Source: Clostridia bacterium
GTDB taxonomy: Bacteria; Bacillota; Clostridia; UBA1381
Direction: 5' to 3'
Length of the DNA stretch: 35,641 bases
Assembly: GCA_022768695.1 (NCBI GenBank)
Contig: JALEPO010000184.1
Location: 1-35,641 of the forward strand
Made by a program: the position numbers and the translations under genes. Position 1 is the stretch's first letter; each line of letters starts with the position of its first letter. The notes beneath the pieces were generated by a model that saw only the letters and a list, made by a program, of their open reading frames with translations, did not search any database and was not told the origin of the DNA. This document shows positions 4,948 through 20,706 of the stretch, piece after piece.

Positions 4948-4958
4948 TTTGGAGGAGC

Positions 4959-4980
4959 TTAGTGTGAAAATTCACACTAA
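4959..4980. repeat. Perfect 10-bp inverted repeat after cobU
   Basis: The arms TTAGTGTGAA (4959-4968) and TTCACACTAA (4971-4980) are perfect complements separated by two bases. No T-run follows, so it is not a classic terminator. A strong GGAGGAG (4951-4957) sits just before it. GTG 4964 could open a six-codon reading frame ending at TGA 4982-4984. It may be an operator, a transcript-processing hairpin, or the remnant of an older start of the next gene. Confidence 0.55.
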
Positions 4981-4990
4981 TTGATTTAAT

Positions 4991-5032
4991 TGCCTGTGCG
5001 TTTTCGCCTGAAGGCAAAAACGCACATAGGCA
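4991..5032 (+). other. Long stem-loop in the cobU-cobS intergenic region
   Basis: The segment folds as TGCCT / TAGGCA outside, GTGCGTTTT / AAAACGCAC in the middle and GCC-TGAA-GGC at the tip, making an almost continuous stem of about 20 pairs. It lies directly upstream of the conserved cobS leader element. No run of T follows, so intrinsic termination is unlikely. It may stabilise the downstream transcript or insulate the leader fold. Confidence 0.6.
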
Positions 5033-5033
5033 T

Positions 5034-5121
5034 AAATCACCATTTAACGCCTTATCTGCCCACGATAAGGAGTTAAAGTTTTTCATTACTATTTGTGGGC
5101 AGAAAGGCTATGGTGATTTTT
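5034..5121 (+). promoter_or_regulatory. Candidate structured leader RNA (cobS copy of a two-copy element)
   Basis: The hairpin CCTTATC (5050-5056) / GATAAGG (5064-5070) has the loop TGCCCAC, which is exactly complementary to GTGGGCA at 5095-5101. Pairing of that loop would make a pseudoknot. As an alternative, GCCTTATCTGCCCAC can pair with GTGGGCAGAAAGGC (5095-5108). An outer helix AAATCACCAT (5034-5043) / ATGGTGATTT (5110-5119) would bury the likely Shine-Dalgarno GGTGA (5112-5116). The same core precedes mntP near 20511-20561. The sequence facts are direct, and a translational switch is inferred. I do not recognise a known riboswitch family in it. Confidence 0.65.
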
Positions 5122-5886
5122 ATGAGAGTTTTAAAGTCATTATGCTTGGCATTTTCGATGTATTCAAAAATTCCTATGCCAAATGTTTACTGGAGCAAGG
5201 AAAATATGAGATATTCGTTATGCTTTTTGCCTGTTATCGGCGCCGTTGTCGGCGGACTGCTTATGGCATGGTTTAGCATTTGTTTAAAGCTTGGAATCAA
5301 TAATGCCTGTTTTGCTGCCGCTGCGGCGGCAATACCTGTTTTTGTCACAGGCGGGATACATACTGACGGTTTTATTGATACGAGCGATGCGCTGTCCTCA
5401 TACGGCGATAAGCAAAAAAAGCTTGAAATATTAAAGGATCCCCATGTGGGTGCTTTTGGAATAATAAACGCGGTTGTTTATTACCTGCTGTACTTTGGAT
5501 TTCTGAATGAGATAAAAATTTACGGTGAAGCGGCAATGTTGGCACTGGGGTTTGTTATGTCGCGCTCTGTCTGCGCGGTAAGTATAATGATGCTCAGATG
5601 CGCTAAAAATACAGGACTTTTATTTAAATTTTCAACAGCAGCCAATAAGCCGGTTACACTTGCCGTAACGATGCTTATGCTGCTCGGCTGTGCCTTTGTG
5701 GTGATTTTGTTGAGCGCGTATATAGGTGCGGCAGTATTACTTTCGCTTGTTATTCTGTTTTTTTATTACAGATTTGTTATATATAATAAATTCGGAGGCA
5801 TAACAGGAGATACCTGCGGATGGCTTATAAAAATGTGTGAGCTTATCACGGTTATTGTTGTTGTTATTGGAGGAAAACTGGTTTGA
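5122..5886 (+). CDS. cobS: Adenosylcobinamide-GDP ribazoletransferase (cobalamin synthase)
   Basis: The 254-residue membrane protein has the CobS motifs FVTGGIHTDGFIDTSDAL and DPHVGAFGI, plus several hydrophobic segments, and ends next to a GGITGDTCGW motif typical of the family. It joins adenosyl-GDP-cobinamide to alpha-ribazole (phosphate) at the membrane. Earlier in-frame starts exist (GTG 5095, ATG 5110), but they lie inside the conserved leader. ATG 5122 has GGTGA five bases upstream and gives the usual CobS N-terminus. The stop overlaps the next TTG start. Confidence 0.92.
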   Translation: MRVLKSLCLAFSMYSKIPMPNVYWSKENMRYSLCFLPVIGAVVGGLLMAWFSICLKLGINNACFAAAAAAIPVFVTGGIHTDGFIDTSDALSSYGDKQKKLEILKDPHVGAFGIINAVVYYLLYFGFLNEIKIYGEAAMLALGFVMSRSVCAVSIMMLRCAKNTGLLFKFSTAANKPVTLAVTMLMLLGCAFVVILLSAYIGAAVLLSLVILFFYYRFVIYNKFGGITGDTCGWLIKMCELITVIVVVIGGKLV

Positions 5887-6844: not shown

Positions 6845-6899
6845 AGTGATGTTTTTACCAAATAGCGCGCATATTTTTGCGTGCGTGAAAAATCATACT
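6845..6899 (+). other. Hairpin leader upstream of cbiB
   Basis: An inner stem GCGCGCA (6865-6871) / TGCGTGC (6878-6884) is extended by an outer imperfect stem between 6845-6858 and 6885-6899 (GATGTTTTTAC with GTGAAAAATC). It ends just before the ribosome binding site GAAAGGTGA of cbiB. It has no sequence similarity to the cobS/mntP element. It may tune cbiB translation or protect the message. The role is inferred. Confidence 0.45.
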
Positions 6900-6915
6900 G
6901 AAAGGTGACATTTAG

Positions 6916-7884
6916 ATGCTTTTATATTCAACAGCGGCACTGGCGGCGGGATTTATAATCGACTGTTTTATTGGAGATCCTCATTGTATTCCGCATCCTG
7001 TATGCTTTATAGGGAAAATGATTTCTTTTTTTGAGAAGACGCTAAGACGTATTTTTAGGGACACTAAAAATGGTCAGCTTTTGGGCGGCGGCATAATGAC
7101 AATGCTTGTTCTGCTGATATCCTTTTTAATTCCACTGACAGTTCTTATTGCGGCATATAAAATCAATCTGTGGTTGGGTTTTATGTTTGAGGCAATAATG
7201 TGCTGGCAGTGTATTGCGGCAAAATCACTGAAAAAAGAGAGTATGATGGTATACAGCGATTTGATGGAGGATGATATTGAGAAAGCGAAGCATTCGTTGT
7301 CTATGATTGTGGGACGTGACACGGAGCCTCTGGATAAAAAAGGAGTTATTAAGGCAGCGGTAGAAACTGTTGCCGAAAACACATCTGACGGAGTTGTCGC
7401 GCCTATGATGTTTCTGATATTCGGCGGAGCTGCCGGCTTCCTTTATAAAGCAGTAAACACTATGGATTCAATGGTGGGGTATAAGAACGAACGGTATCTT
7501 TATTTTGGACGCTGTTCTGCAAAAGCGGATGATTTTTTAAATTACATACCTGCGCGCGTATCGGCATATATGATGATTTTTGCGTCATGGCTGCTTGGTA
7601 TGGATTTAAAAAACGCTGTAAAAATACACAGACGTGATTCAAAAAAACATTCAAGTCCAAATTCGGCACAGACGGAGTCGGTATGCGCCGGGGCGCTTGG
7701 AGTAAAGCTTGCCGGAGATGCCTGCTATTTCGGAAAGTTGGTAAAAAAGCCTGAAATAGGCGACTCGTTAAGAGAAATTGAAATTGAAGATATAAAAAGA
7801 GCAAACAGACTGATGTATCTTACGTCGGTGCTTGCGCTCATTTTATGCTTGGCTGTTAAATTAATTATTTGGGTGATATTATGA
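6916..7884 (+). CDS. cbiB: Adenosylcobinamide-phosphate synthase (CbiB)
   Basis: The 322-residue integral membrane protein has the CbiB/CobD signatures FIGDPHCIPHPVCFIGKMI near the N-terminus and ETVAENTSDGVVAPM in the middle. The family attaches (R)-1-amino-2-propanol phosphate to adenosylcobyric acid. The ATG has AAAGGTGA upstream. The stop overlaps the next start as ATGA, and the next gene supplies the aminopropanol phosphate, which fits an operon. In Pseudomonas-style naming this gene is called cobD. Confidence 0.93.
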   Translation: MLLYSTAALAAGFIIDCFIGDPHCIPHPVCFIGKMISFFEKTLRRIFRDTKNGQLLGGGIMTMLVLLISFLIPLTVLIAAYKINLWLGFMFEAIMCWQCIAAKSLKKESMMVYSDLMEDDIEKAKHSLSMIVGRDTEPLDKKGVIKAAVETVAENTSDGVVAPMMFLIFGGAAGFLYKAVNTMDSMVGYKNERYLYFGRCSAKADDFLNYIPARVSAYMMIFASWLLGMDLKNAVKIHRRDSKKHSSPNSAQTESVCAGALGVKLAGDACYFGKLVKKPEIGDSLREIEIEDIKRANRLMYLTSVLALILCLAVKLIIWVIL

Positions 7885-19941: not shown

Positions 19942-20499
19942 TTATCCGAATATGTGCTCCAAGAGAGTCTTTGTGCCAATCAGAATAAGAATTATACCAC
20001 CGATAATTTCAGCCTTGTTGCCGAGAATATCACCGAATTTTCTTCCGGCGTACATTCCGAAAAATGAGAATAAAAACGCAACAATTCCGATTACTAAGGA
20101 GGAGAACAAAATCGGTGCCGAAACTGCTGCGAGTGAAATTCCGGCAGCGAGCGCATCTATGCTTGTTGCGATTGCCATAAGAAAAAGAGTCGATATTTTA
20201 AGTGGATTTTGTGGGATTTCCTCCTCGCCGCGCAATGCTTCCCATATCATGCGTATGCCTAAAAATGCCAAAAGTCCGAACGCAATCCAATGGTCAAAGC
20301 TCTCAATATATGACGACGCAAAGGAGGCAAGAAAGTTGCCTATGCATGGCATAAGAAACTGAAATAATCCGAAAAACAGACCTACCTTTAAAGCGTCGAA
20401 AGCTTTGAAGCTTCTGACAACAAGTCCGTCTGTCACCGCGACTGAAAAAGCGTCCATAGCAAGTGCTACAGATAAAAATAAAAGTGAAACTATATCCAT
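19942..20499 (-). CDS. mntP: Manganese efflux pump MntP
   Basis: The 185-residue membrane protein has about six hydrophobic segments and the two DUF204 half-repeats with membrane aspartates, ALAMDAFSVAV and ATSIDALAAGIS. The family exports Mn(II). ATG 20499 has AAGG six bases upstream. An in-frame GTG at 20523 would add eight residues but lies inside the conserved leader element. In many Firmicutes mntP is controlled by the yybP-ykoY manganese riboswitch. I do not see that motif here, but the leader shared with cobS is present instead. Confidence 0.93.
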   Translation of the reverse strand: MDIVSLLFLSVALAMDAFSVAVTDGLVVRSFKAFDALKVGLFFGLFQFLMPCIGNFLASFASSYIESFDHWIAFGLLAFLGIRMIWEALRGEEEIPQNPLKISTLFLMAIATSIDALAAGISLAAVSAPILFSSLVIGIVAFLFSFFGMYAGRKFGDILGNKAEIIGGIILILIGTKTLLEHIFG

Positions 20500-20561
20500 A
20501 ATGACCTTAGCCTTTCTGCCCACGAATAAAAAGTTTACAGCCTTACCGTGGGCAGATAAGG
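20500..20561 (-). promoter_or_regulatory. Candidate structured leader RNA (mntP copy of a two-copy element)
   Basis: Read on the minus strand, CCTTATC (20561-20555), loop TGCCCAC (20554-20548), GGTAAGG (20547-20541) form a hairpin. GTGGGCAGAAAGG follows from 20523 to 20511, and GTGGGCA is complementary to the hairpin loop. The core matches the cobS leader nearly base for base, with one A-to-G stem change that keeps a T-G pair. CCTTA can instead pair with the TAAGG of the Shine-Dalgarno region. A further small hairpin (ACGG..AGAT / ATCT CCGT) lies upstream at 20585-20604. Confidence 0.65.
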
Positions 20562-20706
20562 AATTGTATTTTACCGCTTTTGTGACGGAGATTAAATCTG
20601 CCGTTGTGATTTTTCGCGTTAATATTTCATGCAGATAAAATAATTTTGATATTTTATTCTATCATATTATCAGTAATTAGTAAATAGCAGAGATTTCTTT
20701 TGATTT

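Follow-up and report, generated by a model that had tools for sequence, protein, structure and literature searches.

A structured RNA element dispersed at gene starts of gut Clostridia, with filled and empty sites

The preQ1, SAM-II, SAM-V and SAM/SAH riboswitches bind a ligand and precede the genes of one pathway. The element described here, present in two copies on a 35,641-nucleotide contig of a Clostridia bacterium (the whole of which is referred to as the window), shares with them an H-type pseudoknot topology at or beside a Shine–Dalgarno (SD) sequence, but has no Rfam match and no theme among the genes that it precedes. Rickettsia palindromic elements are short palindromic mobile repeats that affect genes, can look like spurious open reading frames and insert in frame inside coding sequences, whereas in the present element no reading frame is kept and the insertion lies before the ATG. 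Palindromic elements derived from IS200/IS605 (REP) have hairpins near their ends, lack a target-site duplication and need a fixed short target beside the left end; the present element agrees in the first two properties, but shows no fixed left target and has two dissimilar ends.

Among the repeats of Streptococcus pneumoniae, BOX and RUP are reported to carry both terminal inverted repeats and target-site duplications, and enrichment between convergent genes is reported for all of BOX, RUP and SPRITE (PMC3049150). The present element resembles these three in being small, structured, non-coding and multi-copy, and their occasional transcription as 5′ extensions and probable mobilization in trans are counted as a further likeness; it differs in having no duplication, in sitting only at start codons and in carrying its own SD. 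MRSC-65-2, a mobile/repeat sequence candidate, is described as a single long stem (PMC11109978). Like it, the present element forms dozens of covarying structured copies per genome, but by that description it differs in its several helices, its SD and its apparent targeting of start codons. MITEs, IS200/IS605-derived repeats, Rickettsia-type palindromic elements and the known riboswitch families each depart from the element in at least one of the defining features tested.

Structure of the element

The leaders of cobS and mntP had been described in an earlier note as two copies of one pseudoknot-like RNA fold, with the pattern of a selected structure and not matched to a riboswitch family. Both leaders are present on opposite strands of the window (Table 1), each with a GCCCAC loop that can pair with GTGGGC directly beside the SD, and Pfam confirms the identities of CobS and MntP. 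The pattern TGCCCAC-N20–50-GTGGGCA occurs twice in the window and in none of 100 dinucleotide shuffles, the cobS leader has a fold energy of −37.6 kcal/mol (z −6.7 against shuffles), and the outer pairing proposed for it is exact. The pseudoknot-type pairing by the SD, the link to gene starts and the covariation uphold the view of a selected fold, and an Rfam search with the window and 18 related loci gave zero matches at or above the gathering threshold and only chance hits at permissive E-values. Two details were amended. The single stem difference between the copies (U-A to U-G) does keep pairing, but it is one among many changes across relatives, most of them compensatory; and the flanks, which had been taken to differ, do not simply do so, as long-form similarity in the cobS copy reaches 5′ to about position 4959 within a longer element.

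Table 1. Features of the cobS and mntP leaders (positions in the window)
Feature	Position	Strand	Evidence or remark
Native cobS SD (TTTGGAGGAG), upstream of the insertion	4948–4957	+	Empty-site cobS orthologues have SD, spacer and ATG here
Hairpin A, cobS copy (TTAGTGTG AAAATT CACACTAA), 5′ end of long form	4959–4980	+	Helix 1: 96% paired, double changes
Hairpin B, cobS copy (TTGCCTGTGCG ... CGCACATAGGCA)	4990–5032	+	Helix 2: 7/10 pairs changed on both sides
Outer helix P0, 5′ strand, cobS copy (AAATCACCAT)	5034–5043	+	Long-form alignment
P1 5′ strand, cobS copy (CCTTATC), also complementary to SD	5050–5056	+	Covariation
T between P1 5′ strand and S2 5′ strand, cobS copy	5057	+	
S2 5′ strand (P1 loop), cobS copy (GCCCAC)	5058–5063	+	Covariation
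P1 3′ strand, cobS copy (GATAAGG)	5064–5070	+	Covariation
S2 3′ strand, cobS copy (GTGGGC)	5095–5100	+	Covariation
Element's own SD, cobS copy (AGAAAGG), adjoining S2	5101–5107	+	Near-invariant among 85 aligned copies
P0 3′ strand, cobS copy (ATGGTGATTT), between SD and start codon	5110–5119	+	Long-form alignment
cobS coding sequence, native ATG at 5122	5122–5886	+	Pfam CobS
Hairpin A remnant (TTAACGCGAAAAATCAC) upstream of mntP copy	20606–20622	-	Compared with A7 consensus
P1 stem and S2 5′ strand, mntP copy (CCTTATC T GCCCAC GGTAAGG)	20541–20561	-	
Parts of the above: CCTTATC; GCCCAC; GGTAAGG	20561–20555; 20553–20548; 20547–20541	-	
S2 3′ strand, mntP copy (GTGGGC)	20518–20523	-	
SD, mntP copy (AGAAAGG)	20511–20517	-	
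mntP coding sequence, ATG at 20499–20497	19942–20499	-	Pfam MntP

The core consists of (C)CTTATC-N-GCCCAC-(A)-GATAAG(G), a spacer usually of 7–30 nt, GTGGGC and AGAAAGG. One unpaired nucleotide before a 6 bp S2 fits the classical geometry of an H-type pseudoknot. In an alignment of 59 copies, which had been chosen for pairing, 12 of the 13 P1 and S2 pairs are changed on both sides, and no shuffled or slid control comes close. When S2 was placed without use of P1 in 198 copies, with 3′ strands swapped between genomes as the control, six or seven of the seven P1 pairs formed in 86% of the copies (swapped controls 62%); for copies with an unusual P1 strand the figures are 86 and 53%. A seventh S2 pair, between the nucleotide before S2 and the first SD base, showed no coupling and was rejected. 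Beyond the helices and the SD no aptamer-like conserved core was found.

The P1 5′ strand can pair with the SD as well, in 52–57 of the 59 copies at six of seven positions and in 45 at the seventh, and could in this way close the SD and make the module bistable. This pairing lies beyond the reach of a covariation test because the SD hardly varies; copies with a changed P1 strand preserve their P1 pairing better than their pairing with the SD. Nearest-neighbour energies average −22.2 kcal/mol for the unconstrained nested fold, which usually has the greater part of the SD in pairs, and −14.8 kcal/mol with the SD free and no pseudoknot. By these energies the nested hairpin that closes the SD is preferred to the pseudoknot, so that the ON state is uncertain. 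S2 appears compatible with both folds, and exchange of the GATAAGG and GAAAGG strands would expose or hide the SD.

Aligned with one another (alignment A7), 27 long forms drawn from many families give the order hairpin A (NNNAACGTGAAAAATCACGTTNNN, almost invariant), hairpin B, P0, the P1/S2 core, the SD and an end at the start codon. Pairing reaches 94% over the complete structure, both partners have changed in 19 pairs and none of 500 shuffles does as well; the weakest helix is P1 (85% paired). P0 occurs in the compensatory variants TTTCC/GGAAA, TATCC/GGATA, TCACC/GGTGA, TCGCC/GGCGA, TTCCC/GGGAA, TTTTC/GAAAA and TCTCC/GGAGA; over all copies its pairing exceeds the control in a minority only (22 versus 12% at score 16), mostly long forms. 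Hairpin A lies at the 5′ end of the element only, and terminal inverted repeats at both outer ends were not found: P0 lies close to the 3′ end, but its 5′ strand is internal. No reading frame is conserved across the element, frames and lengths both varying; a leader peptide within the long form was rejected, as both stops and frames vary. Frames running across the element may account for many of the short hypothetical proteins of these genomes. In many long forms P0 contains an ATG (positions 5110–5124 of the window and their equivalents), 12 nt upstream of the native ATG and in frame with it (ATG GNN ATT NNN ATG).

Further variation was seen among the long forms. Two copies (L454, before uxaB in genome G060, and L130) are a variant with about 105 extra bases, rich in inverted repeats, between the P0 5′ strand and P1, and this block recurs upstream of another copy in that genome. 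Five long forms of the f2 type (L125, L126, L127, L129 and L131) have CCTCC or CCTTC directly after hairpin A, which could pair with the native SD and hide it. The bases flanking hairpin A can themselves pair (UA with AU; A7 columns 2–3 with 25–26), the left ones resembling native spacer; this pairing might be a trace of the insertion mechanism.

Distribution and downstream genes

A covariance model (R1), built after a pattern search, identified about 22 good copies in the 2.09 Mb genome to which the window belongs and matches in 45 of 61 relatives, with up to 30 copies in one of them. With a second, broader covariance model (R2, E ≤ 1e-5), at least 57 of 391 sampled Clostridia genomes from many families are carriers, the R2 counts being minima from at most 12 candidates scored per genome. 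In a Bacillota-wide sample R2 matched none of 397 genomes besides the window's own, which points to a low rate of false hits. Where an exact core match falls in a named contig, the contig is nearly always clostridial, as with the cultured Ructibacterium gallinarum DSM 107454 and with Candidatus Avimonoglobus. Phage and plasmid records gave no match to the element; one viral contig did. A literature search of open-access papers found nothing relevant on the sequence, on Monoglobus riboswitches or on repeats that target start codons. The element is a new structured RNA family, previously uncatalogued and widespread in gut Clostridia.

The position of the element is closely defined. In 190 of 194 distinct elements from 63 genomes a start codon follows the SD in sense orientation at a distance of 8–18 nt (mode 14), and the start is ATG in 182, compared with 9% for random windows of the same loci. 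A search in family f2 with hairpin A alone, disregarding the ribosome-binding site, gave 11 matches, all of them sense-oriented long forms at gene starts.

The downstream genes in the window's genome are cobS, mntP, ispG and mnmE and those for a SleB-like hydrolase, an MGDG-synthase-like glycosyltransferase, a serine and a tyrosine recombinase, a DNA-alkylation-repair protein, a TcdA-like protein, a sodium-dependent transporter, HPr, TRAP and a V-type ATPase subunit. In other genomes they include pgk, efp, nusG, rho, topA, pyrH, hisZ, asd, glmM, fabF, murA, lepA, guaA, glmU, greA, serS and argH, together with genes for V-ATPase K, a 2-oxoacid:ferredoxin oxidoreductase subunit and an EF-G-like protein. 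The TRAP copy of the window's genome (L052, contig C161) precedes the gene for a trp RNA-binding attenuation protein (PF02081). No shared pathway or ligand was seen among the downstream genes of the window's genome and the other carriers.

These observations bear on the proposal of the earlier note that one ligand or metal signal acts on cobS and mntP. A ligand- or ion-sensing riboswitch that closes or frees the SD in response to a signal common to these and the other genes would account for a structured 5′ leader with a covarying pseudoknot beside the SD, for the complementarity of the P1 5′ strand to the SD and for the position shortly ahead of start codons. We nevertheless consider it highly improbable, given the absence of a functional theme (from pgk, efp, nusG, rho, topA, murA, lepA and guaA to a spore hydrolase, a recombinase, TRAP and others), the absence of an aptamer-like core, the recent insertions described below and the sporadic occurrence at orthologous genes (3 of 20 ybaB and 1 of 16 cobS). 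The element is absent from 15 cobS orthologues, and of 30 mntP loci examined, the window included, only one other species has it; after this survey a shared cobalt/manganese signal was rejected. The earlier note saw a real selected fold, but read as one plausible metabolic switch two copies of an element that precedes dozens of unrelated genes.

An RNA thermometer, or the binding site of one global RNA-binding protein, would likewise place one conserved structure before many genes and could make use of the stable alternative fold that closes the SD. There is no protein candidate, and the set of copies differs between close relatives, which makes this explanation equally hard to credit.

Filled and empty sites

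Comparison with orthologous loci shows that the cobS copy is a recent insertion. In a sister species (79% identical protein) and in 14 other relatives, cobS directly follows its upstream neighbour with a plain SD, whereas in the window 163 nt separate the native SD from the ATG. Filled and empty sites of the same geometry were found at ybaB, murG, iscS, uxaB and rpiB, and further ones at a feoB-linked gene, mnmE and a lipoprotein gene. At the feoB-linked gene the flanks are near-identical: the empty site reads AGAAAGAAGGAATT-GAA-ATG and the filled site, present in two species, reads AGAAAGAAGGAATT-[AACGTG ... GATATT NNN]-ATG. In 19 of 26 long forms hairpin A is preceded, at a distance of no more than 16 nt, by a strong SD, compared with 0–2 of 26 in control windows; no such enrichment was found directly upstream of short forms. 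Within one genome, copies can be 88–98% identical with unrelated flanks.

Two elements stand in series before one SleB-like gene in the window's genome (L048, contig C63, minus strand); in this nested insertion the SD of the older element takes the role of the native SD for the newer long form. A complete long form with a native SD (TTTGGAGG) also occurs in a putative viral contig (L448, IMGVR_UViG_3300031555_010414, minus strand, about 6889–7077), and the product of the gene behind it has no PHROGs match. Palindromes resembling hairpin A in four other viral contigs proved unrelated.

At matched filled and empty sites the flanking bases show no consistent repeat that would indicate a target-site duplication, and the left flanks vary, with no fixed tetra- or pentanucleotide target. 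The earlier note had allowed that its leaders might turn out to be a scattered DNA repeat. The copies are indeed dispersed, but they are linked to gene starts, covary and match no Rfam family. An ordinary MITE or small interspersed repeat, inserting without preference and surviving only where it does no harm, would fit the size, the palindromic hairpins, the near-identical dispersed copies with unrelated flanks and the lack of coding capacity. It is a very unlikely explanation, since the copies are not scattered but sit exactly at gene starts, since no duplication accompanies them at the matched sites and since among the long forms no insertion was seen upstream of the native SD, where it should do just as little harm.

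Ageing of copies and a possible mobile origin

Several sites appear to record stages of decay. Hairpin B is gone at one site in one of two sister species (L504), at another hairpin A has degenerated and the native SD has disappeared (L499/L503), and the mntP copy retains a remnant of hairpin A. Among 20 family members of ybaB, three have the element, as one long form and two diverged short forms in congeneric species. These intermediates and the ybaB forms suggest that short forms are probably old insertions reduced to the pseudoknot–SD module, a descent shown by only a few intermediates.

The short forms could alternatively represent an ancient general leader for translation initiation, a pseudoknot ribosome-binding site inherited with its genes, with the long form as a later mobile offshoot that captured the leader. 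Most copies are short forms, many of them before housekeeping genes, and orthologues in two genomes (G040 and G058) have diverged but compensated copies at ybaB, asd and efp. The patchy presence at orthologous loci, the existence of intermediates between long and short forms and the hairpin A remnant kept in the mntP copy argue against such a leader, and we judge it rather unlikely.

We consider it probable that the family is mobile but non-autonomous and is targeted to translation starts, its ribosome-binding module being kept by its hosts. The family would comprise small (about 150–190 nt) mobile elements of Clostridia that are non-coding and apparently non-autonomous, and each new copy would land in the gap from the native SD to the native start codon, always in sense orientation. 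Its transcript would fold into hairpin A, hairpin B and a 3′ module in which the P1 loop pairs with the strand adjoining the element's own SD (S2) and P0 pairs the stretch between the SD and the start codon. The 3′ module would act as a replacement ribosome-binding site, so that the host gene stays expressed; over time the native SD and the 5′ hairpins would decay, while the pseudoknot–SD module would be retained with compensatory changes. The way in which the element moves, and the presumed use of its SD by ribosomes, are what we infer from the sequences compared. Against a mobile origin, the short forms common to ybaB and asd orthologues across species would also fit an older cis-regulator, no target-site duplication is seen and hairpin A is not recognizable in about 156 of 192 copies.

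A bolder version, which we regard as unlikely, is that what the element recognizes is the translation initiation site itself, perhaps as RNA on the mRNA with later copying back into DNA, and that a portable, bistable switch for ribosome binding is spread through the genome in this way.

We know of no earlier mobile element that targets the gap between the Shine–Dalgarno sequence and the start codon. If the mobile origin is correct, it is a whole translation-initiation region, and not a promoter, that is moved, and hosts retain it as the leader of housekeeping genes, the translation start of unrelated genes being taken over. The filled and empty sites, which can be dated, would then be a natural record of regulatory rewiring and would raise the question of what machinery is able to find a start codon in DNA or RNA.
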